Part shown: positions 42,614-56,750 of the stretch, piece by piece | Layout: each line of letters starts with the position of its first letter | Numbering within the stretch: the first letter of the stretch is position 1 | NCBI RefSeq assembly: GCF_003048595.2 | Contig: NZ_CP049270.1 | Location: 930,001-994,000, forward strand | DNA from: Campylobacter concisus | GTDB lineage: Bacteria > Campylobacterota > Campylobacteria > Campylobacterales > Campylobacteraceae | Length of the DNA: 64,000 bases | Reading direction: 5' to 3' | Notes under the pieces: model-generated | Seen by the model: the letters and a program-made list of their open reading frames with translations, nothing else | The model's database searches: none | Told to the model about the DNA's origin: nothing | Position numbers and translations under genes: made by a program

Positions 42614-42643
42614 AAATTTTACATATAAAAATATGTAAAATTT
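42614..42643 (-). terminator. terminator of the hypBCDEA transcript
   Basis: AAATTTTACATAT and its perfect 13-base complement flank AAAA. On the minus strand TTATGTTTTTTATC follows. The hairpin overlaps the hypA stop codon. Confidence 0.65.
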
Positions 42644-42983
42644 ACTTCATCTCAAGGCGCATAAGATACATATCCTCGCCATCAGTCACCTTTAAATTTT
42701 GGCTCTTGCACTTTGGGCAAGTAAAGTCATTTTCGCTAAGTTCCCCACCAAATCCGCAATCCAAGCACTCAATAACCACGGCTTGTAAATTTATCACAAG
42801 CTCGGCGTTTTCGCAGATCGTACCAGCCTTATAAACATCAAAGGCACTCTCTAAATAGTGTGGCTCAACACTGCTTAAACGACCGACCTTTATCTCTATC
42901 TTGCTTATCTCTTTGGCGTTTTCTTTGGTGGCATTTTTCTCGCAAAGGCTAACTAAATTTTGAACGATACTAAGCTCGTGCAT
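42642..42983 (-). CDS. hypA: hydrogenase nickel incorporation protein HypA
   Basis: This 113-residue nickel metallochaperone has the invariant start MHELSIVQNLV, in which His2 and Glu3 bind nickel. The zinc site is two CxxC pairs, CLDCGFGG (~74) and CPKCKSQN (~92). With HypB it delivers nickel to the HydB apo-large subunit. Helicobacter and Campylobacter HypA can also serve urease where present, but no urease is seen here. It is last in the hypBCDEA run, sharing one base with the hypE stop. Confidence 0.95.
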   Translation of the reverse strand: MHELSIVQNLVSLCEKNATKENAKEISKIEIKVGRLSSVEPHYLESAFDVYKAGTICENAELVINLQAVVIECLDCGFGGELSENDFTCPKCKSQNLKVTDGEDMYLMRLEMK

Positions 42984-43975
42984 TAGCAGATCCTTGGTAG
43001 TAGCTCGCCTTTTGGCGGCTCGAGAAATCTTCTTGATTTATAGGCGTTTTCGATGATGACACGCTCGTTTTTAGCTTCCATTACCTCGCCTATTATCATC
43101 GCGTTTTTATCAAATTCTCTTAAAATTTTAAGCGCGTCCTCGGCCTCGCTCTCATCGACAGCCATCACAAAAGTACCCTCATTTGCAAGCTCATAAGGCT
43201 CAAATCCAAATAGCTCACAAACACCCATCACTTCGTTTGCAACCTTGATATTTTCTTCAAAAACCAAGATGTCAAATTTACTAAATTTAGCCCACTCATT
43301 TAGCACGGCACTTAGTCCGCCCCTTGTCGCATCACGCATGCACTGTGGCTTTATGCCAGCGCTAAATAGCTTTAAGGCAACCTCTTTTAGGCTCTTGCAG
43401 TCACTTTTCAGATCAAGCCCAAGCTCAAATTCTTCTCTTGCTGCAAGCACCACGCCGCCGTGTCTGCCAACATCTCCAGAGATTAAAATTTTTGCCCCTG
43501 CTTTTAAATTTTTAAGCTCCACGCCTTCGCAAACTATCTCGCCGATGCCTGCTGTGTTTATGAAAATTTTATCGCATTTGCCCTTTGGTACGACCTTTGT
43601 ATCGCCACAAACTACGCTTACACCGCTCTCTTTGCAAGTTTTTGCAAGCGAGCCAAGCACGTGCTCAAGCTCCTCTATACTTAGCCCCTCTTCAATGATG
43701 AGCGAACAGCTTAGGTATTTAGCGCTTGCACCAACCATCGCAAGGTCGTTTATCGTGCCGCAAGCTGCGATCTTACCGATGTCGCCACCATTAAAAAAAA
43801 TGGGAGTTACCACAAAGCTATCAGAGCTAAATGCGATCTTGCCGTTTAAATTTAATATCGCTGAGTCGTTACTCTGTCTTAAAATTTCGTTATCAAAAAT
43901 TTTAAATATCGTCTCGTTTATAAGCGAGTTCATCTCCTCGCCGCCGCCGCCGTGGCTTAGCATTATCTTTTTCAT
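42983..43975 (-). CDS. hypE: hydrogenase maturation protein HypE
   Basis: This 330-residue AIR-synthase-like ATPase dehydrates the thiocarboxamide on its own C-terminal Cys to a thiocyanate for the [NiFe] iron cyanides. The start MLSHGGGGEEMNSLI and the substrate-Cys tail ELLPRIC (Cys330) are diagnostic, and PKGKCDKIFINTAGIGEI and GGDIGKIAACGTINDLAM cover the nucleotide part. It works with HypF (carbamoyl donor) and hands cyanide to HypCD. The gene sits between hypD (eight-base gap) and hypA. Confidence 0.96.
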   Translation of the reverse strand: MKKIMLSHGGGGEEMNSLINETIFKIFDNEILRQSNDSAILNLNGKIAFSSDSFVVTPIFFNGGDIGKIAACGTINDLAMVGASAKYLSCSLIIEEGLSIEELEHVLGSLAKTCKESGVSVVCGDTKVVPKGKCDKIFINTAGIGEIVCEGVELKNLKAGAKILISGDVGRHGGVVLAAREEFELGLDLKSDCKSLKEVALKLFSAGIKPQCMRDATRGGLSAVLNEWAKFSKFDILVFEENIKVANEVMGVCELFGFEPYELANEGTFVMAVDESEAEDALKILREFDKNAMIIGEVMEAKNERVIIENAYKSRRFLEPPKGELLPRIC

Positions 43976-43983
43976 TAAATTCC

Positions 43984-45075
43984 TTAACCAACTCTTGCGT
44001 ATTTAAAATATGCCGCACAAGCGCCCTCGCTTGAGACCATGCACGATCCTATCGGATTTTGCGGGTTACAGACCTTGCCAAAGACTTTACACTCTGTTGG
44101 CTTTGCTAGCCCTCTTAAAATTTGCCCACAAATGCAAGCCTTGCTCTCGCCCGCGCTCTCTACACTGCAGTCAAACTGCACTCTGGCGTCAAGGTAAGCA
44201 AACTCGTCTCTTAGCTTCATGCCACTTTGTGCTATCTCGCCAAGGCCTCTCCAGACAAAATCGCACGGCTCAAAGTACTTAGCTATGAGCTCTTTTGCCT
44301 TAACATTACCCTCTTCTTTGACAGCCCTCGCGTACTCGTTGTAGACTTCATGTGTGCCTGCATTTTGCTGACGGACTAAATTTAAGACACTTGCCATGAT
44401 GTCAAGCGGCTCAAAACCGCTAATGGCAATCGGTCTTTTAAACTCATCTGCTAGCTCTTTGTAAATTTTACTACCAGTGATGACGCTCACGTGACTTGGG
44501 CCTAAAAATGCGTCTATTCTTACATTTTCATCGCCCATTATCGCTCTAACTGGAGCTGGGACGGTTACGTGATTTATATGAAAGTATAAATTTTTAATGC
44601 CCTGCTCAACTACTTTTTCAACCAAATTTGCGCTCATCGGAGTCGTCGTCTCAAAGCCTATGGCAAAAAATATGACCTTTTTATCTGGATTTTGTTGTGC
44701 TATATTTAGCGCATCAAGTGGCGTGTAAAGTGCTCTTATGTCGTGCCCTTCGCCACGAAGCTTTTGCAGGCTAGTCTTTGAACCAGGCACTCTTAGCATG
44801 TCAGCTAGCGTGCAAAAGATCACATTATCCATGCTAGCTAGCTTACAGGCCTCATCTATGCGACTCTTTGGCATCACGCAGACCGGACAGCCTGGGCCGT
44901 GGATGAAATTTATATGCTCTCCAACCAAGCTTGGCAGTGCAAATTTCATAATGCTATGCGTGTGACCACCACAAATTTCCATGATATTTAGGGGCTTTGT
45001 GCTCTCTTTTTGGATGAGTTTTGAAAGGGCTAGGATTAAATTTTTATCGCGAAAGTCATTGATAAGATCCATCAA
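43984..45075 (-). CDS. hypD: hydrogenase maturation protein HypD
   Basis: This 363-residue [4Fe-4S] scaffold holds Fe(CN)2CO while it is built. Diagnostic motifs are NIMEICGGHTHSIMKFALPSL (CGGHTH at ~35), HGPGCPVCVMPKSRID (~62-77) and FFAIGFETTTPM (~145). The C-terminal cluster ligands are in ACICGQILRGLAKPTEC and VCNPQNPIGSCMVSSEGACAAY. It partners with HypC, whose gene lies directly upstream with a four-base overlap (ATGA). Length and motif order match the family. Confidence 0.96.
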   Translation of the reverse strand: MMDLINDFRDKNLILALSKLIQKESTKPLNIMEICGGHTHSIMKFALPSLVGEHINFIHGPGCPVCVMPKSRIDEACKLASMDNVIFCTLADMLRVPGSKTSLQKLRGEGHDIRALYTPLDALNIAQQNPDKKVIFFAIGFETTTPMSANLVEKVVEQGIKNLYFHINHVTVPAPVRAIMGDENVRIDAFLGPSHVSVITGSKIYKELADEFKRPIAISGFEPLDIMASVLNLVRQQNAGTHEVYNEYARAVKEEGNVKAKELIAKYFEPCDFVWRGLGEIAQSGMKLRDEFAYLDARVQFDCSVESAGESKACICGQILRGLAKPTECKVFGKVCNPQNPIGSCMVSSEGACAAYFKYARVG

Positions 45076-45311
45076 ATTTTCCCCGCGTTCATATCATCAG
45101 CGATCTTTTGATAGACCTCTAAGCTCTCAAGCGCAAACTGCGTATCGATCTTTTGCATAGCGTATCCTACGTGGATTAGCACGTATTCGCCCACTTTTAC
45201 CTCTTCAGAGATGAGATCTAGGCTTACCTTTCTAGTAACGCCCAGAGTCTCAACGGTGGCAACGTTATTTTCATCTATTTCTATTACTTTTGAAGGGATT
45301 GAGAGGCACAT
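45072..45311 (-). CDS. hypC: hydrogenase assembly chaperone HypC
   Basis: This 79-residue small chaperone has the invariant N-terminus MCLSIPSKVIEID. Cys2, exposed after Met removal, binds iron and HypD. EYVLIHVGYAMQKID is the conserved strand. It shuttles the Fe(CN)2CO group to HydB and holds it open for nickel insertion. It shares one base with the hypB stop and overlaps hypD, so stoichiometric production is likely. Confidence 0.95.
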   Translation of the reverse strand: MCLSIPSKVIEIDENNVATVETLGVTRKVSLDLISEEVKVGEYVLIHVGYAMQKIDTQFALESLEVYQKIADDMNAGKI

Positions 45312-46123
45312 TATCTTAGCTCTTTTTTAAATTCCAAATAACTTATCCATTTATCAATGCCTTCACCAGTTTTGCTATCTATCACAAAGATATCGACCTT
45401 TGGATTTAGCTTTCTAGCGTCGTTTTTCACTCGCTCGATGTCAAAGTCAAAGTGTGGCGCAAGCGAAGCTTTTGTGATGAGAAGCACGTCAGCAGCCCTA
45501 AACATCACTGGATATTTGCTCACCTTGTCATCACCCTCTGGCACTGAAAGAAGCACAGCGTTAAAGTGTGAGCCAACGTCGTAGCTTGCAGGACAGACTA
45601 AATTTCCAACATTTTCTATAAAGACTAGATCAAGCTCGTTTAGCGGCAAATAATGAAGCCCTTCATGCACCATAAATGCGTCCAAGTGACAGGTCTGACC
45701 TGTGCTTATCTGATGAGCCTTTGCACCAGCTTTTACTATGCGATCAGCATCTTGATTTGTCTCCAAATCGCCCTCAACAACGCCTATTTTAAATTTACCA
45801 GCCTTTATCGTAGCCTCTAAAAGCGTCGTCTTACCAGCGCCTGGGCTACTCATCAAATTTACACAAAGTATCTTTTTTTCATCAAGATGAGCTCTGTTGT
45901 GAGCAGCTTCTTTATCATTTTCACAGAGAATTTTCTCTATCACGTCTATGGTTTTGCTCTCGTTTAGCACAGGGTGTGCATGAGCCTCATGGCTATGCTC
46001 ATGTGCGTCATGAGCGTGATCCGTATGCCCATCATGAGTATGTGGGTGCGAGTGAGTGGTGCCATCTACATGAGTGTGGGCATGGGCGTGATTACCCATT
46101 GAGCAACCGCAATCTTTGCACAT
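45311..46123 (-). CDS. hypB: hydrogenase nickel-insertion GTPase HypB
   Basis: This 270-residue SIMIBI GTPase powers nickel delivery. The N-terminal CKDCGCS is the high-affinity CxxCGC nickel site. Then comes a histidine-rich tract, with 16 His between residues 12 and 50, of the storage type known as nickelin. The GTPase core has P-loop NLMSSPGAGKTTLLE (~105), GDLETNQDADRI and the metal-site HQISTGQTCHLDA. VFIENVGNLVCPA is switch II, and LLITKASLAPH is the base-specificity loop. AAAAAGGAT precedes the ATG. It heads hypBCDEA. Confidence 0.96.
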   Translation of the reverse strand: MCKDCGCSMGNHAHAHTHVDGTTHSHPHTHDGHTDHAHDAHEHSHEAHAHPVLNESKTIDVIEKILCENDKEAAHNRAHLDEKKILCVNLMSSPGAGKTTLLEATIKAGKFKIGVVEGDLETNQDADRIVKAGAKAHQISTGQTCHLDAFMVHEGLHYLPLNELDLVFIENVGNLVCPASYDVGSHFNAVLLSVPEGDDKVSKYPVMFRAADVLLITKASLAPHFDFDIERVKNDARKLNPKVDIFVIDSKTGEGIDKWISYLEFKKELR

Positions 46124-46251: not shown

Positions 46252-46857
46252 TTACTCTTTTTGCCTAATATCATCCAGCTTATCAAAATTTTCATTACCA
46301 AATAATTTTTTACTATTCTTTCCGGCACTCTTTTGAATTATTAGATCCTTTAATCTAGCCTTGCCATTATCCATCACCATCAAAACCGCATATGCATTAA
46401 CATCTTCTTCTCTCATTTCATTTTCTGCCTTAGCCGCACTATCAGGTGACATATAAAACTGCTCTATGCCGTATTTTACGAGTGAGTAGCCGTCATATCT
46501 ACCAGCTAAAAACACTCCATTGTCTGGCTTGCTTATACTAAATTTAGCAAAGCTGTAAGTGCCATTAACATCTGGTTTTAAAACAGCATAAACTCTAGCC
46601 CCATCTCTTACTCTCTCATCGTATTGGTCGATATAGCGGTCATCTTCATCATTTTCGTCAAAATTTCTTGAATGGAAATTTGAAAATTCATAGTTTAAAT
46701 CAACATAGTTTCCACGAAAAAGATCTCTTGGATCATAAAGATTAACCCTTACTCTTACCTCTTGCCCAAAATAAAGTGGCATAAGTGCGTAGCCAAGCAT
46801 AATGCCAATAAGTGAAATTTGAAAAACTACAGCTACTATTAATACTTTTATCTTCAT
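46252..46857 (-). CDS. GDYXXLXY-type membrane-anchored protein
   Basis: This 201-residue protein begins with a membrane segment (VLIVAVVFQISLIGIMLGYALM). The periplasmic part contains YDPRDLFRGNYVDLNYEFS, matching the GDYxxLxY signature with Asn in place of Asp (GNYVDLNY). The family occurs next to DUF2157 proteins, as here, where it overlaps the upstream gene by four bases. The biochemical role is unknown. Energy coupling and stress functions have been guessed for such pairs, but nothing in the sequence decides. It lies between nikR and hypB, although no hydrogenase link is visible in its residues. Confidence 0.75.
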   Translation of the reverse strand: MKIKVLIVAVVFQISLIGIMLGYALMPLYFGQEVRVRVNLYDPRDLFRGNYVDLNYEFSNFHSRNFDENDEDDRYIDQYDERVRDGARVYAVLKPDVNGTYSFAKFSISKPDNGVFLAGRYDGYSLVKYGIEQFYMSPDSAAKAENEMREEDVNAYAVLMVMDNGKARLKDLIIQKSAGKNSKKLFGNENFDKLDDIRQKE

Positions 46858-48113
46858 TTTTTACATCCTTTTCTAGCGACAACTAGCACTATGAAAGCAA
46901 ACACCATAAATAGCGCCGTAGCACCAATATAATCACCTATGAGTTGGAAATACCTCACGGCTGCAACCAAAAATATCATACAAAGACCGAGTTTTAACTC
47001 ACCCTTTTTGATAAGAACCGCAGCTGTTATGATATTTGCGAGCGAAAAAAATATATTTGCGTAGCCAGGACCGTAGCTAAAGACAAAGGGTAACGACACG
47101 AGCAGTGCCCCAAGCAGCAATCCACTCTTGTTTTTTTCTTTAAAAAACAGTGCAAAATAAGCAACACTAAATAAAATAAAGACAAAGCCAAAATTGCTTT
47201 TAAAAAACGACTTCACAAACCAAAGCTCTTCATCTCCAACCTCAAATAAATTTCTTTCTTCAAATAAAAATAGACAAAATAACAACACAAAAACGCCAAA
47301 ATTTTTACCAAATTCTTTCGTAAATGCGCCAAGCCCTACTCTAAATTTATCTAGTAGCGGCGAAATACCAATAAGCAAAAGTGCATAAGATAGCGATACG
47401 ATCGCAACCATAGGAAGTCCAAACAAAAAGTCATAATCAAATATCGCCCTAAGACCACTAATGTAGCCGCAAAATGAAATGATGTATATAAAAATATCTA
47501 CAAAAAGCACAAAAGCAAGCCATTTCGAGTCGTCTTTGTAAAGCGTATATGCGCCAAGTGCTATAAAAATGATAAAGCCAAAACCAAAGTCGCCCTGATA
47601 GCCCACCATAAAAAACCAAACTGTCGCAAAGATAAGGCTTTGGGCTACCAACACACCTTTTTTACTAGCAAAAGAAACTGCAAACGCTCCGATACTCCAA
47701 AGCAAAATACCACCGCTTGGCTCATCGCTAATGTTATAAATTTGAGCAATAAGAGCAATCGCCGCACCAAAGCAGAAATTTCCAAGAAAAAACATCGCCG
47801 TTGATAGATTTTCCTTTCCCTTTGCGAGATAGTAAATTCCACCAAAATTTACAAGCCCAAGTACAAACAATACAAGTGCTAAACGTCCTAGTCTTGGTAT
47901 CTCTTCCCAGTTTGCACCAACGAGCGTAAAAAAAGCTAGCGCAAAAAATAGATATGCTACGAGCTTTAAGACAAAACTTATCTTGTCGCTATGAGCATCA
48001 GGGTCGATGTCATATAAATTTGCTATTTTTATAGCGGTCTCTTTATCGACTATACCGTCACTTTGCCACCGATCCAGCTCTTTTGCTAGAAAAATTTTAT
48101 TTAAAAAGTTCAA
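46854..48113 (-). CDS. DUF2157 family polytopic membrane protein
   Basis: This 419-residue protein begins with a soluble DUF2157 head (FLAKELDRWQSDGIVDKETA to IANLYDIDPD, ~5-45). About twelve membrane helices follow, beginning ISFVLKLVAYLFFALAFFTLVGANWEEIPRLG (seen as VLKLVAYLFFALAFFTLVG). The start is taken as TTG, the third of three consecutive TTG codons, because AAGGAG stands six bases before it. A longer frame begins 25 codons upstream but would translate the ribosome site. The function is unknown. It is coupled to the GDYXXLXY gene (ATGA overlap). Confidence 0.8.
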   Translation of the reverse strand: MNFLNKIFLAKELDRWQSDGIVDKETAIKIANLYDIDPDAHSDKISFVLKLVAYLFFALAFFTLVGANWEEIPRLGRLALVLFVLGLVNFGGIYYLAKGKENLSTAMFFLGNFCFGAAIALIAQIYNISDEPSGGILLWSIGAFAVSFASKKGVLVAQSLIFATVWFFMVGYQGDFGFGFIIFIALGAYTLYKDDSKWLAFVLFVDIFIYIISFCGYISGLRAIFDYDFLFGLPMVAIVSLSYALLLIGISPLLDKFRVGLGAFTKEFGKNFGVFVLLFCLFLFEERNLFEVGDEELWFVKSFFKSNFGFVFILFSVAYFALFFKEKNKSGLLLGALLVSLPFVFSYGPGYANIFFSLANIITAAVLIKKGELKLGLCMIFLVAAVRYFQLIGDYIGATALFMVFAFIVLVVARKGCKK

Positions 48114-48507
48114 CAACAACTCCTTTGCAAGCTCATTAAAACATAAGAAGCCTATTAGCCAGCGTAGAAATGTGGTAATAAGGATCAAATTTTTGTTGTT
48201 ATTATATAAAAATATAATTTAAATGCTAAGAAGAATTACTTGTATGAAATTTGAGCTTATCTTTTATAAATTCTAGCCTTAAACTAAGCTCAAGAAAAAG
48301 ACTACAAACTATATTTTATTTAAAAGATATGGAGTTTGCACGAGCAAATCAGCAAAAACTCCATATCGATTTACAAAAACCACAAAAACCGCTTAAAAAC
48401 TATTTTGAAAGACAAATACAATAAACAACGCAACTATGAGAAACCAACTGCTTGCTATACTTGTTAAAAACTCCTAAATTTCCTACCACCGCAAAGACTT
48501 TAGCGCG
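48114..48507. other. 394-base gap between DUF2157 and nikR
   Basis: It holds the terminator of the nikR transcript (48326-48367) and a GC-centred palindrome TTTAGCGCGCTAAA (48499-48512) overlapping the nikR stop. Two tiny reading frames were considered and not accepted. The promoter for the DUF2157 pair must lie near 48120-48240, but it was not identified. Confidence 0.55.
48326..48367 (-). terminator. terminator at the end of the hyd-hypF-nikR genes
   Basis: GATATGGAGTTT pairs perfectly with AAACTCCATATC around an 18-base loop. On the minus strand CTTTTAAATAAA follows. It lies 141 bases after the nikR stop. Confidence 0.55.
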
Positions 48508-48921
48508 CTAAAATTTAGGAACAGCAGCCTTTGTGAGTTTAGAAAATTTTACACCCTTTAAGCCGGCGATCCTTTCAGCAAAGCGTTCAATTTTGCCAGC
48601 CTCGCCTCTTATTGAAATCGTTTCTAAGCAGTTATGATGATCGACATGAACATGGTTTGTACAGATGATTTTCACATCAGAGCTATGCTCTATATCCATC
48701 TTTTTATTCACCAAATCGTTGTGATGATGCATATAAATGAGCGTCAAAACCCCGATCAACTCCTCACTAGCGTCCTTCCAGCTATCACTTACGATCTTTT
48801 CGCGTATCAGATCCCTCGTAAATTCGCTCCTAGAAGCGTAGCCTTGTTCGCTAACCTTTTTATCTAGTTCGTCTAGTAACTGACTAGGTAAAGAAACACT
48901 AAAACGTATAACACTATCCAT
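48508..48921 (-). CDS. nikR: nickel-responsive transcriptional regulator NikR
   Basis: This 137-residue tetrameric regulator has an N-terminal ribbon-helix-helix ([19 protein letters not shown] with [13 protein letters not shown]) and a C-terminal ACT-like nickel domain. The nickel ligands are visible as H-x-H then Cys in [12 protein letters not shown], with the further His in IYMHHHNDL. It represses or activates nickel-uptake and nickel-enzyme genes when nickel is bound. The ATG follows GGAGCAG by six bases. An upstream in-frame ATG would translate the ribosome site. It lies 45 bases after hypF and has its own possible -10 box in a palindrome. Confidence 0.94.
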
Positions 48922-48951
48922 TTTCTGCTCCTTTCTCGTTTGATTACCGTT

Positions 48952-48964
48952 TATAATCATTATA
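48952..48964 (-). promoter_or_regulatory. nikR -10 box inside an AT palindrome
   Basis: TATAAT-C-ATTATA is a perfect 13-base inverted repeat. Its minus-strand TATAAT lies 38 bases before the nikR ATG. It could serve as both -10 and operator. Such AT-only repeats arise often by chance in this genome. Confidence 0.35.
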
Positions 48965-48966
48965 CA

Positions 48967-51210
48967 TCACTTATTAGAAAATGTGGATAAATAATAATAA
49001 ATTTGCCCTAAATTTACGTTAGAATCGTTGCTACAGAATTTTTTATTGATATAGAATTTCAAATTTGATTTAGTAAATTTTTTGTAAATAAGTTCGAGTA
49101 AAGTCTTATTTTGAAAAACTCCACCGCTTAGCAAAATTTCTATTTTTTCTTTTTTTGAAATTTCAAAAATAATATCAGCCAAGCCATTTATAAATGCCGT
49201 TGCAGCCGCTCTTGGCTCATCTTTTAAAGCACTTTTAAAAGCTTCTTCAAAGCCGATCACTCCATCATCTAGGCTAAATTTATAACACACATCTAAATTT
49301 TTATCATAAAGTGATTCAAGTCTCATACCACTCTCGCCCTCAAAACTCGAGTGAAAAAGCCCACAAATAATCGCTCCAAATGCGTCAAATATCCTACCAA
49401 CTGAGCTAGTCTTTACTAAGTTTAATCCTTTTTGCTCCATTTTTTTAAAATTTGCAAGCATTTTTTCATCAAAATTTACTAAAAATTTACTAGCTTCGTC
49501 CTCAAGAGAGTATTTTAAAATAATAGAATATGCGATTAGATAAATATTTTTGATGCTGTTTTCGCCCCCAAATAGACTAAATTCATCAAAATGATAAACT
49601 CGCTCGTAACTCTTTTTATCAAGCCTAAAGACCTCGCCACCCCAAATTTTACCATCCTCCCCGTATCCAGTGCCGTCAAAACAAAATCCAAGATACTTTT
49701 TATCTGCTAGATCGTTTTCAAGGATCACGCTTAGCAAATGCGCGTAGTGGTGCTGCAAATGAACTAGCTCAAAGCCCTGATCCTTTGCCCATTTTGTATT
49801 TAAAAAATTTGGATGCAGATCGGCTATGACCTTGTCTATTTTTAGGTTGTAAGTCTTATAAAAAAGGGTAAAAATATCTTTAAATCTATCAAAAGTCGCT
49901 ACGTTTTTTAGATCACCAATATACGGGCTAATCATCAAAAGCCCGTCTTTATAGATACAAAATGAGCTTTTTAGCTCCGCTCCAAGGGCTAAAAATGTCC
50001 CTTTTTGCTTGAAATTTGTATGAATGAAATTTGGATTTAGCCCACGGCTTGTCCTTGTAAAAATCGTCTCATCACCAGCACAAAATGCGATACTATCGTC
50101 ACTTGGCGAGTAAATTTCTCGGTCGTGATCAAGGTAAAAGTCTATGACGTCACCTAGCTTTTCTCTTAGCTCACCCTCATCTTTTATTACAACTTCGCCT
50201 GATATGTTTGCGCTAGTTGCAATGATGTCGTGCAAAAGATAGTCAAATAGCAAAAGATGTATGCCACTAAATGCAAGCATAACGCCAAGCTTGTTTAAAT
50301 TTGGAGCGACACTTTTTGCGATATTTGAGCCATTTTTTGCTTCAAGCAAGACGATGGGTTTTAAATTTGAGTTAAGTAGCTTCGCCTCTGCCTCTGAAAT
50401 TTGCGCTATTTTTCTGGCGTTTTGTAAATTTTTACTCATCAGCGCAAAAGGCTTACTTGGGCGGTGTTTTCTGGCTCTTAGCTCGCAAACTGCGTCTTCG
50501 TTTGTCGCGTCGCAAACTAGATGAAAGCCACCAAGCCCTTTAATGGCTAAAATTTTGCCCTCGTTTATGAGCTTAGCTGCCTCTTTGGCTGCTTCGTTTT
50601 TACTAGCCAAGACTTTGCCAAATTTATCTTTTAGATAGAGTTTTGGTCCGCAGTTTGGGCAAGAGATCGGCTCTGCGTGATAGCGGCGATTAAGCGGATC
50701 TTTGTACTCGCTCTCGCAAAATTTGCACATTTTAAACTCATTCATCGTCGTATTCACCCGGTCATAAGGCAACGCTTTGATGATCGAAAATCTAGGCCCG
50801 CAGTTGGTGCAGTTTATAAATGGATATTTGTAGCGTGGATTTGTGGGGTCATAAAACTCGCACAAGCAGTCATCACAAAGTGCGTAATCAGGCAAAATAG
50901 GCGCTTGTTTGGTGGCTGACTTTGAAGCGATGATCTCAAGCTTTTCATAAATTTTATCTATTTTAATCTTCTTTAGCTCATCAATCCTAGCAAGGGCTGG
51001 CAGCTTCTCATAAAGCTCTTTTTCAAAAGCCAAAAAGTTAGCCTCTTCGCCGCTAAAATTTAGCTTCACACCCTCGTCGTCGTTGTAAATTTCACCAACT
51101 AGCTTAAATTTATCCGCCAAAGTATAGACAAAAGGTCTAAAGCCCACACCTTGAACTAAGCCTTTGATCTCATATCTAAAGCTTGATCTCAACGCCAAAT
51201 CCGGGGTCAA
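48967..51210 (-). CDS. hypF: carbamoyltransferase HypF (hydrogenase maturation)
   Basis: This ~740-residue protein makes the carbamoyl group for the iron cyanides. The acylphosphatase domain has KGLVQGVGFRPFVYTLA (catalytic Arg25). Two zinc-finger repeats follow (CDDCLCEFYDP with CTNCGP, and CKFCESEYKDP with CPNCGP, ~107-190), then the YrdC-like domain (~200-385, GLGGFHLVCDATN, KHRPSKPFALM). The Kae1-like domain has the metal site LQHHYAHLL and a C-terminal LLSGGVFQNKTL. It transfers carbamoyl to HypE. The start is a TTG inside hydE. Nearer in-frame TTGs at 51198 and 51192 are equally possible. Confidence 0.95.
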   Translation of the reverse strand: MTPDLALRSSFRYEIKGLVQGVGFRPFVYTLADKFKLVGEIYNDDEGVKLNFSGEEANFLAFEKELYEKLPALARIDELKKIKIDKIYEKLEIIASKSATKQAPILPDYALCDDCLCEFYDPTNPRYKYPFINCTNCGPRFSIIKALPYDRVNTTMNEFKMCKFCESEYKDPLNRRYHAEPISCPNCGPKLYLKDKFGKVLASKNEAAKEAAKLINEGKILAIKGLGGFHLVCDATNEDAVCELRARKHRPSKPFALMSKNLQNARKIAQISEAEAKLLNSNLKPIVLLEAKNGSNIAKSVAPNLNKLGVMLAFSGIHLLLFDYLLHDIIATSANISGEVVIKDEGELREKLGDVIDFYLDHDREIYSPSDDSIAFCAGDETIFTRTSRGLNPNFIHTNFKQKGTFLALGAELKSSFCIYKDGLLMISPYIGDLKNVATFDRFKDIFTLFYKTYNLKIDKVIADLHPNFLNTKWAKDQGFELVHLQHHYAHLLSVILENDLADKKYLGFCFDGTGYGEDGKIWGGEVFRLDKKSYERVYHFDEFSLFGGENSIKNIYLIAYSIILKYSLEDEASKFLVNFDEKMLANFKKMEQKGLNLVKTSSVGRIFDAFGAIICGLFHSSFEGESGMRLESLYDKNLDVCYKFSLDDGVIGFEEAFKSALKDEPRAAATAFINGLADIIFEISKKEKIEILLSGGVFQNKTLLELIYKKFTKSNLKFYINKKFCSNDSNVNLGQIYYYLSTFSNK

Positions 51211-52648
51211 AATTTGTTTTTATATTTGGGTTTAGGTGCTTTTTTATCAAGTTGCTAACTACCTTATTATAAAATAAATCCCCGCTTAAAGTAATATTTT
51301 TGATGTTAAATTTATCTCGTTTTTCATAGCTAAAATCGCTCAAAAAATGTGCCAAAGACTCGGTGCAACCAAAGCTGATGTTCTTCTCTCCAGCGCCAGC
51401 AAGGATGAATGAAATGATACTTTTTACAAACTTAACCCCGTCTAAACCAAACTCATCTTTCATCTTGTAATCAATCCTAACTCCCTTTTGACCGCTAAAA
51501 TCAGCTGCCATAAGAAGCAAATTCTCCCCTGCTTTTTTAAAGTCATCGCCTAAGCCAAGTATGCGCCCAGCTATGCAAAATATCGAGAAAAAGCTAGCAT
51601 TTGAACTAAAATTTCCACTTGGTAAAGTATGCTCTTTGCTGAAATTTTCAAGTAGCCTTTCGCCGCCCTCATCAGCTCTTATGAGCTCATAAATTTCTTC
51701 AAAGCTACTAAATTTTGGCAAAAATAGAAGCTGCGTTTTGCTTGATTTTGAAAGCAGGCAAATTTCGTCATCACTAAATTTGCTAAATTTTAACCCCAAA
51801 GCTATATCGCTAAAATTACTAAGCTCAAATTCCTCGTTTTTTGCATAGAAAAATGGGCTTAAAACTGCGCTACTTTCAAGCAAAGTAAGCCTTGAAAGAG
51901 CATTTTTTTGCTCCTTTACTTTAACGCTTAAAAAGCTAAAGCTCTCTTTGTTTAGCTGCTCGCAAAGGGCGTAAAGAAAAAGATCATTTGGCGCCATCAC
52001 GTCAAAAAATAGTGGTGCATCCTCGTGATTTTGTCTATAAATGGCTGTCGTCTTTAGAGCTAAAAGTGGCTTTTCAAAGCTAGCTAAAAATGTCAAAACT
52101 CTATCATCGGCAATAAAAATTTTTGGTAGATGCTTTAAATTTACAGGCATCAAGAAATTTGCGTCAAAATTTACGCCAAGAGAAATTTCATATAAATTTT
52201 CATCCTGTTCTATACAAACACTCTTGCCGTTTTTTAACAAATTTAGGCAAGCTTTTAGCTTTTCATTAAAATTACCAAGCGTTATCTCGCTCTCAAATTT
52301 ACTCTCACATAGCACGCCACTTTCATTTAAGATAGCCTTTTCGCTAGCCAAAAAAGCGCTCGCTTGAGTCGGAGTTAGGCCGCCAAATTTTATCTCATTT
52401 ATCTTGCTATCTTCATCAAGCTCACTTACAGCCAAGACCTCACTGTGCTTTATAAAAAGACTAAAAGGCAAGAGCGTACTTGCTTTATTTGCCACGCTCT
52501 CAAGCTCGCTGGCATTACCACTTACCTTTAGACAAATTTCATCTTCTTTGCACTTTATACTATGAGCTAGATCGCCAGCAAGCAAGCGTAAAAATGGCGC
52601 TAGAAACGAAGCGTCTTTGTGGCAAGTAAATTTAAAAGCAAGTATCAT
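51176..52648 (-). CDS. hydE: HydE-like protein, a degenerate HypF paralogue (inferred)
   Basis: This 490-residue protein sits between hydD and hypF, where Wolinella and relatives carry hydE. I find collinear similarity to the adjacent HypF: ASFLAPFLRLLA against GVGFRPFVYTLA, with the catalytic Arg replaced by Ala17; EICLKVSGNASE against GVKLNFSGEEAN; LLKNGKSVCIEQ against LINEGKILAIKG; FSGQKGVRID against FEGESGMRLE; and ITLSGDLFYNKVVSNLI against ILLSGGVFQNKTLLELI. The zinc-finger cysteines and the HHYAH metal site are absent. It thus looks like a shortened, catalytically dead HypF. A scaffold or chaperone role in hydrogenase maturation is my inference. Confidence 0.75.
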   Translation of the reverse strand: MILAFKFTCHKDASFLAPFLRLLAGDLAHSIKCKEDEICLKVSGNASELESVANKASTLLPFSLFIKHSEVLAVSELDEDSKINEIKFGGLTPTQASAFLASEKAILNESGVLCESKFESEITLGNFNEKLKACLNLLKNGKSVCIEQDENLYEISLGVNFDANFLMPVNLKHLPKIFIADDRVLTFLASFEKPLLALKTTAIYRQNHEDAPLFFDVMAPNDLFLYALCEQLNKESFSFLSVKVKEQKNALSRLTLLESSAVLSPFFYAKNEEFELSNFSDIALGLKFSKFSDDEICLLSKSSKTQLLFLPKFSSFEEIYELIRADEGGERLLENFSKEHTLPSGNFSSNASFFSIFCIAGRILGLGDDFKKAGENLLLMAADFSGQKGVRIDYKMKDEFGLDGVKFVKSIISFILAGAGEKNISFGCTESLAHFLSDFSYEKRDKFNIKNITLSGDLFYNKVVSNLIKKHLNPNIKTNFDPGFGVEIKL

Positions 52649-53187
52649 TTTAAACCTTTTTTAGCGTATTCATCAACGATATCATTTAGGGTAAAATTTG
52701 CCACCTTTTCACACTCAAAATCAAGCTCTTTTAAGTGTTCAAGCAGCGTTTTTTCTAAAATATTAGAAGCTTTTATAACCTCATCTGAGAGGCTAAAATT
52801 TGATGATTCTATGCGGCTAGGCACGATGCCTAAGATTTTGGTTGTCGGCCTGTCGCCTGCAAGCTCCATTAGATGAAGGGTTTGAAGCATCTCGATCTCG
52901 TGAGCCGAGCCGTCCCAACTGATAAAATTTGGCACGTTTAGAAAGTCGAAAAAATAAACATCGCCCACGCTTGCGCCATTTGCGCTAATGCAATCAACGA
53001 CGATAAGATAGTCAAATTCGCTTATTATGTGAGTTAGAGCGAGGGCTAAAGTGCCCCCGTCCATTAGAGTAAGCTCGTTTTTAGAACTTGTAAAGTTATA
53101 GTTTTTAGCCATCAAATTTACAAAATGAACACCTATGCCCTCATCGGCAAACATCACGTTGCCGATACCAAGAACCAGCACTCTCAT
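52645..53187 (-). CDS. hydD: hydrogenase maturation endopeptidase HydD
   Basis: This 180-residue protease of the HyaD/HybD family has the family start VLVLGIGNVMFADEGIGVHF, with the nickel ligand Glu16. The second acidic ligand Asp is expected in DYLIVVDCIS (~68), and the His ligand is in GSAHEIEMLQTLHLMEL (~97). It cuts the C-terminal extension of HydB once nickel is in place. The start shares one base with the hydC stop. Its last codons overlap hydE (ATGA). Confidence 0.94.
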   Translation of the reverse strand: MRVLVLGIGNVMFADEGIGVHFVNLMAKNYNFTSSKNELTLMDGGTLALALTHIISEFDYLIVVDCISANGASVGDVYFFDFLNVPNFISWDGSAHEIEMLQTLHLMELAGDRPTTKILGIVPSRIESSNFSLSDEVIKASNILEKTLLEHLKELDFECEKVANFTLNDIVDEYAKKGLK

Positions 53188-53867
53188 CAGTGTTCTTTTA
53201 CAAATTTATAGCCACTAACGATAGCGTCCATCGCTCCATTTTTGCCTTTAACAGCGTTAAATACCGCCATATAAACATGAATAGGCACAAATATCATGAT
53301 GATCCACATGCAAATTCTATGTATCGTTCTAACATTTGCTAGTCCGCCCATAAGCTCTTCAAAAAACCTAGCTGGCTCATAAAGCGCTCCGCCAAGTCCC
53401 TCATGATAAACATGAACATAAAGCACAAGACCGCTTAGGCAAATAAGAGTCAAAATAAGATAAAAGAAGAAGTATGAGGCAAACTGCAAAGGATTATAAA
53501 CGCCCCTTAAATGCGGATGCGGCCCCATAAAAAGATAGTATTTGATCTGTGCGATCCAAATTTTTGGATTTAGAAAATCGACCACACTCATCCACTCTTT
53601 TTTACTATGTTTATCAAAGACAAATAGATAAAATTTAAAGATAAACGCCGCTATTAGCACAAAGCCAGCGATCTGGTGAGTCATACGCCACTTTGCTTGC
53701 ATAAAATTTGTAGGCTCGCTCGTGATCTCTGGACTCACAAAAACGTATGAGATATAGTAGCCACTCACAACCAAAAGTGTGATCGCTGCAAATCTAATCC
53801 AGTGTGTCAGCCTAACGCCGATGGAGAATTCATATTCGCTGATCCTGTCAGGATTTTTATGTGACAT
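53187..53867 (-). CDS. hydC: [NiFe] hydrogenase cytochrome b subunit HydC
   Basis: This 226-residue di-heme membrane cytochrome b anchors the hydrogenase and reduces menaquinone. Four to five membrane helices are visible. Candidate heme ligands are in IGVRLTHWIRFAAITLLV (His near residue 22), MTHQIAGFVLIAAFIFKF, GLVLYVHVYHEG and RTIHRICMWIIMIFVPIHVYMA. The length fits the HyaC/HupC/HydC family. It lies nine bases after hydB. The final His-rich helix probably carries both high- and low-potential heme ligands. Confidence 0.95.
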   Translation of the reverse strand: MSHKNPDRISEYEFSIGVRLTHWIRFAAITLLVVSGYYISYVFVSPEITSEPTNFMQAKWRMTHQIAGFVLIAAFIFKFYLFVFDKHSKKEWMSVVDFLNPKIWIAQIKYYLFMGPHPHLRGVYNPLQFASYFFFYLILTLICLSGLVLYVHVYHEGLGGALYEPARFFEELMGGLANVRTIHRICMWIIMIFVPIHVYMAVFNAVKGKNGAMDAIVSGYKFVKEH

Positions 53868-53876
53868 CTTTTCTCC

Positions 53877-55595
53877 TTACAAATTTGGATTTATCTTATA
53901 AGTACTCAAATCATTTCCCTTTGTATCCATAACATGCACAGCGCATGCGATGCAAGGATCGTAAGAGTGAATTTTTCGTATTATCTCGAGTGGTTTTGAA
54001 AGATCAGCGATCTTTAAACCAACTAAGCACGCCTCATAGCTTCCCATTTGATTTTGCGCATCTTTTGGAGAGGCGTTCCATGTGCTTGGTACGACTGCTT
54101 GCCAGTTTGTGATAACACCATCTTTTATGCGGCACCAGTGGCTAAGCGCACCTCTTGGAGCATTGCCTTGAAAATTTCCTTTGTACTCTTTTTTGTTATC
54201 GATTACATATTTTGCGCAAGTCTCTTGATCTGATTTTAAATTTTCTACCAAGGCATTAAATGCATCCATTGTGTGCTCTGCTACTACTTTTGCCTCAAGC
54301 ATACGAGTAGCGGTTCTGCCTAGAGTTGAGAAAACTGCGCTTAGCGGTAAGCCACTCTTTGCTAAAAATTCATCAACTACTTTTTTAACTCTCTCGTTAC
54401 CTCTAGCGTAGTTTATAACGATACTTGCTATTGGACCTACTTGCATAGGCATGCCATCATATCTTGGTGCTTTGATCCAGCTATATTTGCCTTTTGTATT
54501 AAAAAGCTTACTGTGAGCTAGTTTACCCTCGGCGTCTACGCTCTCGCCGTCAATAAGACCTGTGTAGTTCGCCTCAGTCTCGCCGTCATATGGGTGAAGC
54601 GCTTTGTCGTTTTTATACCAAGACCTAGTAGCTTCTTCGGTGATTTTATTTTCATCGATATCATAAACCTTGTTAAGATCGCCATTTAAGATATAGCCAC
54701 CTTTAAATAGATGATCATTTTTGCCTATCAAAAACTCATCGTAGCAGAGTAAATTTGCCACACCAACGTCGTTTAGAACGCTTGGCTCATTACCATAAGC
54801 TTTAGCTGCCATCAAGATATCTGGATAGTAAGCTCTATCTACAAATTCTTTGATCTCGGCAAATTTGCTCATATATTCGCCCATTCTAGCTGGATCCATA
54901 AGGTCCATCACGCAGGTCACACCGCCAACTGTTAGGCTTTGTGGATGTGGGTTTTTTGCGCCAAAGATAGCCATCATCTGAGCTGCTGTTCTTTGAATTC
55001 TTAAACACTCTAGATAGTGCGAGAGGACGATTAAATTTTGCTCTGGAGTAAATTTATATGTACTATGTCCCCAGTATGCGTTGGCAAATGGTCCAAGGTT
55101 GCCCTTTTTAACAAAGGCTTCAACTCTCTCTTTTACCTCTTTTAGCTTGTCAGCTCCTGTGGCAAATGGCAAATCAGTATATTTAAACGCCTCTTCGCTA
55201 GCTTTATGCACGTCTGCGCTTAGTGCAGAGACCACGTCCGCCCAATCCATGCCATGAAGCTGATAGAAATGCACGATGTGATCGTGAAGATATAAAGCTG
55301 CGTTCATAAGCGTTCTAGTTAGCTCTGCATTTAACGGAGGCTTGATACCAAGAGCATTTTCAACTGCGATAATGCCTGCTCGGTAGTGTGAGTATGTACA
55401 AACGCCACAAATTCTTTGCATGAAAAAGCCAGCATCTCTTGGGTCTCTACCTTTTACGATCTGCTCTAAGCCACGCCAAAGAGTTGAGCCAGAATACGCC
55501 TCTTTTACGACATTATTTTCATCTACGACAACTTCTATTCTTAAGTGTCCCTCGATACGTGTTATAGGGTCTATTACTATTCTTTTTTCACTCAT
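53877..55595 (-). CDS. hydB: [NiFe] hydrogenase large subunit HydB
   Basis: This 572-residue group 1 uptake hydrogenase large subunit holds the Ni-Fe site. The N-terminal ligand motif L1 is FMQRICGVCTYSHY (~58-71) and the C-terminal motif L2 is YDPCIACAVHVMD (~546-558). The 18-odd residues after the His of L2 are the extension that HydD removes. ITRIEGHLRIEVVVDENN is the usual opening. It is exported bound to HydA and faces the periplasm. It lies nine bases after hydA. Confidence 0.97.
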   Translation of the reverse strand: MSEKRIVIDPITRIEGHLRIEVVVDENNVVKEAYSGSTLWRGLEQIVKGRDPRDAGFFMQRICGVCTYSHYRAGIIAVENALGIKPPLNAELTRTLMNAALYLHDHIVHFYQLHGMDWADVVSALSADVHKASEEAFKYTDLPFATGADKLKEVKERVEAFVKKGNLGPFANAYWGHSTYKFTPEQNLIVLSHYLECLRIQRTAAQMMAIFGAKNPHPQSLTVGGVTCVMDLMDPARMGEYMSKFAEIKEFVDRAYYPDILMAAKAYGNEPSVLNDVGVANLLCYDEFLIGKNDHLFKGGYILNGDLNKVYDIDENKITEEATRSWYKNDKALHPYDGETEANYTGLIDGESVDAEGKLAHSKLFNTKGKYSWIKAPRYDGMPMQVGPIASIVINYARGNERVKKVVDEFLAKSGLPLSAVFSTLGRTATRMLEAKVVAEHTMDAFNALVENLKSDQETCAKYVIDNKKEYKGNFQGNAPRGALSHWCRIKDGVITNWQAVVPSTWNASPKDAQNQMGSYEACLVGLKIADLSKPLEIIRKIHSYDPCIACAVHVMDTKGNDLSTYKINPNL

Positions 55596-55604
55596 TTTTT
55601 CGCC

Positions 55605-56750
55605 TTATTCTTTATCTTTACTCATAGAAGCTATAACAGCGTGAGCTGCTATACCAATGCCTGTAAGAGCTAAAATTCCAATGCCAACTTTATCGCTGAC
55701 GTTATCAGCTCCAAGACCTAAAACAGTATCAAAGAGTCTATCTGCCATAGGCTCTTCAAATGGTCCCATTGTATCCCAGAAGTCTGGCTCTGAGCAGCCT
55801 ATACAGCCGTGGCCTGCTTGAACTGGCCATGATGTGTGCTGGTTAAATCTCTCGCGTGAGCAGTTATTAAATGTATATGGACCTTTACAGCCTACTTTGT
55901 ATAAGCAGTAGCCATTTTTTGCACCTTCATCGCCGAAGTTTTGGACAAACTCGCCAGCGTCAAAGTGACCACGTCTTTCGCAAAGATCGTGAATTCTTAA
56001 GCCATAAGCCCATTTTGGCCTATTATAAACATCAAGCGCTGGAAGTGTGCCAAAAAGTAAGAAGTGAAGCACGTTGCCAACGATATTTTTCTCACTTGGT
56101 GGACAGCCCGCAACATTAATAACTGGCTTATCAGTGACCTTTGAAAGTCCCACTGAATTTGATGGATTTGGCCTTGCTGCTTGAATGCCACCAAAGCTAG
56201 AACAGGTGCCGATCGCAAAGATAGCAGCTGCGTCTTTTGAAGCATTTACAGCATGAGTTTTACCTGTTGTGCCATGAGGTCCAACAGTTAGAAAATTTTC
56301 AGTCGCACCAGTTGGGATACCGCCCTCAACTAGCAAAATGTATCTGCCTTTGTATTTTTCGATCGCACTCTCTAAATTTTCTTCAGCCTGCCAACCAGAA
56401 GCTGCCATGATAGTTTCGTGGTATTCAAGGCTTATGTAGTCAAATATAAGACTATCTATGCTTGGAGCATCGGTTCTTAGTAAGCTCTCGCTACAGCCTG
56501 TACATTCTGCCATATGAAGCCATATCACAGGAAGCCTATCGCTAAGCTCAGCAGCACGAGCAACCATCGGTGTCATCGCACTTGGTAGAGCCATAAAAGC
56601 TGTCATCGCACCAGCCCACTTCATAAAATCACGCCTCGTAAAGCCCTTCTCTTTTAAAAGTTGCGCAATACTCGAGTCGCTTTTCATCTTAGGCAACGCA
56701 CTAAGCTCACTTAAGCGTCTATCTATCTTTTGACGCAAGTCATTATTCAT
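55605..56750 (-). CDS. hydA: [NiFe] hydrogenase small subunit HydA (Tat signal)
   Basis: This 381-residue small subunit carries three iron-sulfur clusters. A twin-arginine signal (TRRDFMKWAGAMTAFMAL, ~33-50) exports the HydAB dimer. The proximal cluster ligand motif CTGCSESLLR follows, with further Cys in GTCSSFGG and NVAGCPPSEKN. The medial and distal set includes CERRGHFDAG, CLYKVGCKGPYTFNNC and GHGCIGCSEPDFWD. A C-terminal hydrophobic helix (VGIGILALTGIGIAAHAVIA) anchors it near HydC. AAAGGAG lies before the ATG. It heads the hydABCD operon. Confidence 0.97.
   Translation of the reverse strand: MNNDLRQKIDRRLSELSALPKMKSDSSIAQLLKEKGFTRRDFMKWAGAMTAFMALPSAMTPMVARAAELSDRLPVIWLHMAECTGCSESLLRTDAPSIDSLIFDYISLEYHETIMAASGWQAEENLESAIEKYKGRYILLVEGGIPTGATENFLTVGPHGTTGKTHAVNASKDAAAIFAIGTCSSFGGIQAARPNPSNSVGLSKVTDKPVINVAGCPPSEKNIVGNVLHFLLFGTLPALDVYNRPKWAYGLRIHDLCERRGHFDAGEFVQNFGDEGAKNGYCLYKVGCKGPYTFNNCSRERFNQHTSWPVQAGHGCIGCSEPDFWDTMGPFEEPMADRLFDTVLGLGADNVSDKVGIGILALTGIGIAAHAVIASMSKDKE

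Follow-up and report, generated by a model that had tools for sequence, protein, structure and literature searches.

HydE (HP0635) of Helicobacter pylori belongs to the [NiFe] hydrogenase operon hydABCDE and is reported to be needed for hydrogenase activity: hydE mutants have none, nickel does not rescue them and urease is normal (PMC7695850, citing Benoit 2004). Papers from 2017 and 2020 describe its function as unknown or incompletely understood (PMC5557546, PMC7695850), other papers give it a role in membrane localisation, and a 2025 maturation review does not mention it. With the HydE of [FeFe] hydrogenases, a radical S-adenosylmethionine (SAM) protein from a different hydrogenase class, it has only the name in common. 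A paper on Sulfurospirillum cavolei finds HydE in all eleven genomes and the full [FeFe] maturase set HydEFG in three only (PMC4794192), a count that may possibly mix the two proteins through the shared name. Here we analysed a 64,000-nucleotide stretch of Campylobacter concisus (contig NZ_CP049270.1, positions 930,001 to 994,000; hereafter the window), in which hydE (51176-52648, minus strand, as are all window genes below) has the same gene order and profile family as in H. pylori (L147, L148). Its product is, on the evidence of family profiles, almost certainly a relative by descent of the maturation enzyme HypF, encoded next to it. HydE is required for hydrogen use in H. pylori, and recognising it as a probably dead HypF supplies its fold and its origin and narrows the candidate partners to a few.

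Relationship of HydE to HypF

The neighbouring hypF gene (48967-51210, 747 residues, listed start TTG) is intact and scores 749.8 bits against TIGR00143, whereas HydE reaches 12.6 bits against the same model, for which the cut-off is 466.1. A pairwise BLASTP of the two window proteins is not significant (expect value, E, 0.11). Pfam finds a single domain in the window HydE at E values up to 1, HypF_C_2 (PF22521), at 25.4 bits (E 1.4e-5), slightly below its cut-off of 27; no radical SAM domain appears in that search. We gathered HydE homologues from the order and the phylum and built a family profile. When the profile of 61 HydEs was compared with that of 23 Campylobacterota HypFs using hhalign, the two aligned from end to end with a probability of 99.7 and an E value of 3.7e-26. 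We regard the homology as established because the family profile is significant, though the window pair alone is not.

Each region of HydE aligns to its own HypF domain, and in the same order, with E values of 1.1e-7 for the acylphosphatase part, 1.8e-9 for the YrdC part and 4.7e-7 for the C-terminal part. As controls, the columns of each region were shuffled 20 times, and a profile of the unrelated HydB was compared as well; none of these gave a score comparable to that of any of the three HydE regions. With all CxxC-bearing sequences dropped, the three regions still match HypF (2.7e-7, 9.8e-8 and 5.7e-6). A profile search of the PDB with the first HydE profile, of 24 sequences, placed HypFs in the top two positions (3vth, 3.5e-22; 4g9i, 5.5e-16), and one finger-bearing HydE alone matched a PDB HypF at 3e-19. 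Finger-free Campylobacter HydEs on their own found just two families in the PDB, both HypF and both weak (E 0.09 and 0.47), and recovered the acylphosphatase part in hhalign (7e-5).

The original prediction had laid HydE along HypF by matching short motifs, and all of its pairings were recovered by the independent profile-profile alignment. Ala17 of HydE falls in the column of the FRPF arginine (Arg25) of HypF, ICLKVSGN pairs with VKLNFSGE, NGKSVCIEQ with EGKILAIKG, KGVRID with SGMRLE, TLSGDLFYNK with LLSGGVFQNK, and SNLIKK with LELIYK. The eye was here ahead of pairwise statistics, since the two window proteins alone give no significant score. That same weakness, together with the fact that Pfam sees just HypF_C_2 in the C. 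concisus protein, might suggest that the resemblance is limited to the LSGxxFxNK segment and that HydE is otherwise unrelated to HypF. We give this almost no credence: the acylphosphatase, finger and YrdC regions match HypF independently of that segment, which refutes it.

Lost catalytic sites, zinc fingers and origin

HydE has in common with HypF (carbamoyl--[HypE] ligase, TIGR00143; PF00708, PF07503, PF01300, PF17788 and PF22521) the order of its domains: acylphosphatase comes first, then the zinc fingers (kept by nine of the 61 HydEs), YrdC and the second Kae1 subdomain. Unlike HypF, it has no catalytic residues, has lost the first Kae1 subdomain and lies far below the TIGR00143 cut-off. 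In order to follow the active sites, we mapped the catalytic residues onto the 61 HydEs through the HydE-HypF profile alignment. In the acylphosphatase-like domain (residues 1-75, 52424-52648) the catalytic arginine, R25 in HypF, is present in 23/23 HypFs but in only one of the HydEs; in the window the counterpart of FRPF is LAPF (residues 16-19, 52592-52603), with Ala17 (52598-52600) in its place. The acylphosphatase asparagine (N43) is found in two of the 61. In the YrdC-like domain (residues 122-263, 51860-52285) the K248/R250 segment of the KxR motif is deleted and SxN is unconserved (S333 in 6/61, N335 in 3/61). The Kae1-like part (residues 280-490, 51179-51811) consists of the second subdomain only: the window HydE has no match to PF17788, the whole first subdomain being gone. 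The HHxxH histidines occur in one or two HydEs (His487 and His491 in one each), D512 of the DG motif in eight and G513 in none, and the C-terminal ND is lost. Those positions that are kept are structural, with Pro285 and Gly696 in all 61 sequences and Ser281 in 50. In TLSGDLFYNK (residues 453-462, 51263-51292), the counterpart of LLSGGVFQNK in HypF, the first glycine is invariant.

The zinc-finger region survives in the window HydE as a remnant without cysteine pairs (residues 76-121, 52286-52423); in distant HydEs all four pairs are there. Other families of Campylobacterota have HydEs, named 'hypothetical protein' in RefSeq, that are 586-656 residues long and carry two zf-HYPF fingers (E 1e-14 to 1e-17) as well as HypF_C_2. 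Loss of the fingers is graded: all four CxxC pairs are kept in the nine HydEs mentioned above, fewer in others and none in most, the fingers being lost in Campylobacter and Helicobacter. The claim that both fingers and the HHYAH metal site are missing thus holds for the window protein, while for the family the part concerning the fingers does not. With relatives whose zinc-finger cysteines range from the full set through partial sets to complete absence, HydE offers an unusually well-graded case of an enzyme becoming a pseudoenzyme. On the pattern of replaced residues, HydE is probably dead as a catalyst, and the view of it as a catalytically inactive HypF paralogue beside hypF is upheld by the family profile, the per-domain controls, the PDB search and the zinc fingers of its relatives.

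A different possibility is that the old scaffold of HydE has acquired a new active site, for example one that binds a nucleotide or metal near E192/P194 or G389/D393, and would catalyse a step of hydrogenase assembly. The 61 divergent HydEs do share near-invariant positions (L188, E192, P194 and G456, and further S63, G389, D393, S410 and S413), and the best-conserved motif of the protein, FLASFEKP (residues 187-194, 52067-52090), has Leu188, Glu192 and Pro194 in all of them. We nevertheless consider a new active site improbable, given that no conserved cluster of histidines or cysteines and no known motif is seen, that no enzyme profile matches beyond the HypF remnant, and that fast evolution fits a binding protein better; amino-acid change in HydE is faster than in HydB, HydD or HypF.

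In a phylogenetic tree HydE forms one clade (support 100/100) on a stem of 2.93 changes per site, beside the Campylobacterota HypFs; the tree leaves it undecided whether HydE falls inside or just outside these (HypF group support 71/38). HydE would have arisen by duplication of HypF at or near the base of Campylobacterota, a timing we infer. It has lost the catalytic residues of its acylphosphatase, YrdC and Kae1 parts and has shed the zinc fingers stepwise. In plasmid records, the one search that reached beyond the phylum, full-length HydE appears among the listed matches in Sulfurovum and Sulfurimonas only, the other listed matches being HypF or unannotated stretches with HypF-like coverage. 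On the plasmids of Sulfurovum mangrovi (L198) and Sulfurimonas paralvinellae (L199), transposase genes lie near complete hyd-hyp clusters in which hydE is finger-bearing, so the hydrogenase module may move between strains.

HydE and the HydABC hydrogenase operon

Our neighbourhood sample comprised the window and 39 loci longer than 9 kb, with 40 HydE genes in all. Of the 40, 36 have hydD directly upstream, 27 have hypF downstream, and none lacks both. The order hydABCD-E(-hypF) is kept across the phylum with one hydE per structural operon. Two types of structural operon can be told apart; where both occur in one genome (L159), each contains its own hydE, whereas hypF is present once. Genomes negative for HydE are without type I/II HydB, several of them keeping HypF and another NiFe large subunit. 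This other large-subunit type, which reaches 754-801 bits against the HydB profile vs 942-1074 for the HydE-linked types, occurs together with HypF and without HydE at G163:C1:1282540-1287121 and also in G160, G300 and G302; in G163, hydB lies close to hypF, and the interval between the two contains no hydE match.

In two Campylobacter genomes (G008:C1:696914-697255 and G010:C1:721269-721826; L043, L046) hydE is a ruin interrupted by many stops; there HydB is gone and hypF is intact elsewhere in the genome. One partial exception to this co-loss was seen: at G242:C4:155285-155974 a strongly diverged or broken hydE, with a 381-residue frame and two profile fragments, lies between an intact hydB and an intact hypF. 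Since copy number and co-loss follow the structural operon, HydE is not a general helper of HypF but is tied to a single kind of uptake hydrogenase. Gene order, the single copy per structural operon, co-loss and the published H. pylori mutants together argue that HydE is probably a dedicated, operon-specific maturation factor of the membrane-bound uptake hydrogenase HydABC.

The ruins, and the faster evolution of hydE with respect to its neighbours, could also be taken as signs of a decaying gene without function. This is very improbable. Of the 58 genera sampled in the phylum, 57 have a match to the HydE profile (a count that includes some matches to HypF itself), the H. pylori mutants lack hydrogenase activity, and the ruins are found where HydB is gone. 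The ratio of nonsynonymous to synonymous substitution rates (dN/dS), at 0.17-0.23, shows constraint on HydE.

A more serious alternative, although one we hold to be unlikely, is that HydE works within the Hyp machinery, binding HypE (or HypF, or HypC-HypD) and steering the synthesis of the CN ligands or the delivery of Fe(CN)2CO to the HydB encoded in the same operon as itself. HypF forms a stable complex with HypE, and an inactive paralogue serving as a scaffold for Fe(CN)2CO has a precedent in HoxV/HupK (reviewed in PMC12134894). The position of hydE directly upstream of hypF in the majority of loci would also suit such a partner. On the other hand, the number of HydE copies tracks structural operons and not HypF, and the phylum has other NiFe-hydrogenases, those of G160, G163, G300 and G302, that are accompanied by HypF and lack HydE.

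In the window the run reads hydA-hydB-hydC-hydD-hydE-hypF-nikR. It comprises hydA (55605-56750), for the NiFe small subunit with its twin-arginine translocation (Tat) signal; hydB (53877-55595), for the NiFe large subunit, identified by its open reading frame and the HydB profile; hydC (53187-53867), for the cytochrome b subunit, identified with Pfam; and hydD (52645-53187), for the maturation endopeptidase, identified from the reading-frame list and profile matches. hydE follows directly, overlapping hydD by 4 bases and overlapped in turn by hypF, from its listed TTG start, by 35. The hydE frame exists as originally proposed, encoding 490 residues; the plus strand has 34 stops across 51176-52648, and the protein matches the HydE family profile over its full length with 550 bits. 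Beyond hypF lies a gene for a nikR-type nickel-responsive regulator (48508-48960), and hypB, hypC, hypD, hypE and hypA, in order of transcription, occupy 42642-46123 (assigned from order and sequence). Two genes that overlap by 4 bases are inserted between nikR and hypB, at 46252-48188, one for a GDYXXLXY protein (PF14345) and the other for a membrane protein with DUF2157 (PF09925).

The HydA2 fusion and a proposed role for HydE

HydE-profile matches were also found within proteins that begin with a NiFe small subunit of 330 residues. We examined 16 of these HydA2-type proteins (L151:6644-8341 (-), L153:5560-7230 (+), L182:6316-7950 (-), L188:5171-6955 (-) and 12 more), which occur in what appear to be Helicobacter-family genomes and a C. 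jejuni-like genus, and in 16/16 the C-terminal, Kae1-like domain of HydE is fused to the small subunit. The fused domain matches HydE at E 1e-11 to 1e-44 and HypF at 0.0017 or worse. All cysteine and histidine ligands of the HydA clusters are kept in every one of the 16, none has a Tat motif (vs 31 of 34 HydAs), and together they form a single group in the small-subunit tree (91 in the Shimodaira-Hasegawa-like approximate likelihood-ratio test, SH-aLRT). In C. jejuni-like genomes hydA2 adjoins tpiA-pgk-gap, and no hydB was found near hydA2 in the loci with longer flanks. The gene beside tpiA-pgk-gap on the C. jejuni map, Cj1399c, we take to be hydA2. Cj1399c carries the annotation of a putative Ni/Fe-hydrogenase small subunit, and its product has been detected in proteomics (PMC4004267; PMC7048796). 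An annotated 'hydrogenase small subunit' thus has an explanation for its unassigned last 200 residues, and the fusion gives a direct handle on the choice of partner for HydE.

Because a HydE domain is fused to a small subunit, the data suggest that HydE may act on the small subunit HydA, and the fusion points to HydA rather than to HypE, HydB or HydD, the partners that had been proposed at first. It is also the sole fusion found, which speaks against a partner in the Hyp machinery. Profiles of the small-subunit chaperones HybE (PF11939) and HyaF/HupH (PF04809) found no match in the window HydE, nor in any of 60 relatives (60/60 negative), with E. coli as positive control.

Our favoured reading is that HydE is a pseudo-HypF turned into an operon-specific maturation factor, most likely a scaffold or chaperone for HydA, and we judge this, on balance, to be probable. 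The specific role on the small subunit is a more tentative proposal, for which we would claim slightly less than an even chance; the gene fusion and the copy number are the reasons for preferring it over the Hyp machinery. The Kae1-like domain of HydE would hold the Tat-tagged HydA precursor in the cytoplasm until HydB has received its Ni-Fe centre and been trimmed by HydD. More tentative again is the wider scenario in which a HypF stripped of catalysis became the small-subunit chaperone of Campylobacterota, replacing the HyaF/HybE type, and in which the Kae1-like domain of this chaperone later became joined to the Tat-less small subunit of HydA2, a possible maturation decoy or sensor.

Several observations weigh against the small-subunit proposal or leave it less secure. 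HydA2 is the product of an orphan gene, so that the Rosetta-stone argument is indirect. In C. jejuni-like genomes (L142, L143) hydE adjoins hypF, hydABCD having moved off, an arrangement that suits a Hyp partner and fits it equally well. Matches to the HyaE profile are plain thioredoxin-like proteins of 107-119 residues, seen even in G005, which has neither HydB nor HypF, and leave the presence of HyaE undecided. Finally, the AlphaFold model of full-length HydE, made with four sequences (the window protein and three relatives, L031-L033), has a predicted local distance difference test score (pLDDT) of 40.8 and is usable for residues 1-75 only. That part shows the strand (E) and helix (H) order E-H-E-E-H-E, beta-alpha-beta-beta-alpha-beta as in acylphosphatases, with block pLDDT of about 74-83 over residues 1-60. 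Foldseek with the full-length model ranks the acylphosphatase 2fhm at the top (E 0.0095, prob 1.00) and HypF (3vti, 4g9i) further down, all weak; with the N-terminal model alone it returns generic ferredoxin-like folds, acylphosphatases among them, which is consistent and not specific.

Returning to HydE as a candidate HydA chaperone, the nearest functional parallels are HyaE/HupG/HoxO, HyaF/HupH/HoxQ and HybE, whose operon-specific action on the precursor of the small subunit, ahead of its export by Tat, is the role that we propose, so that HydE would do the job of HyaE, HyaF or HybE in other systems. HoxO and HoxQ bind the Tat signal peptide, and HupH binds pre-HupS (PMC3126725). In sequence HydE is unrelated to any of these chaperones. 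We found no paper linking HydE to HypF in the open literature, subscription papers lying outside that search; an inactive paralogue within a maturation pathway is a known class, and the case of HydE from HypF appears to be new. The closest member of that class is HoxV/HupK, like HydE an inactive paralogue of the pathway reused as a maturation scaffold (PMC12134894), with the difference that HoxV/HupK derives from the large subunit and HydE from HypF.

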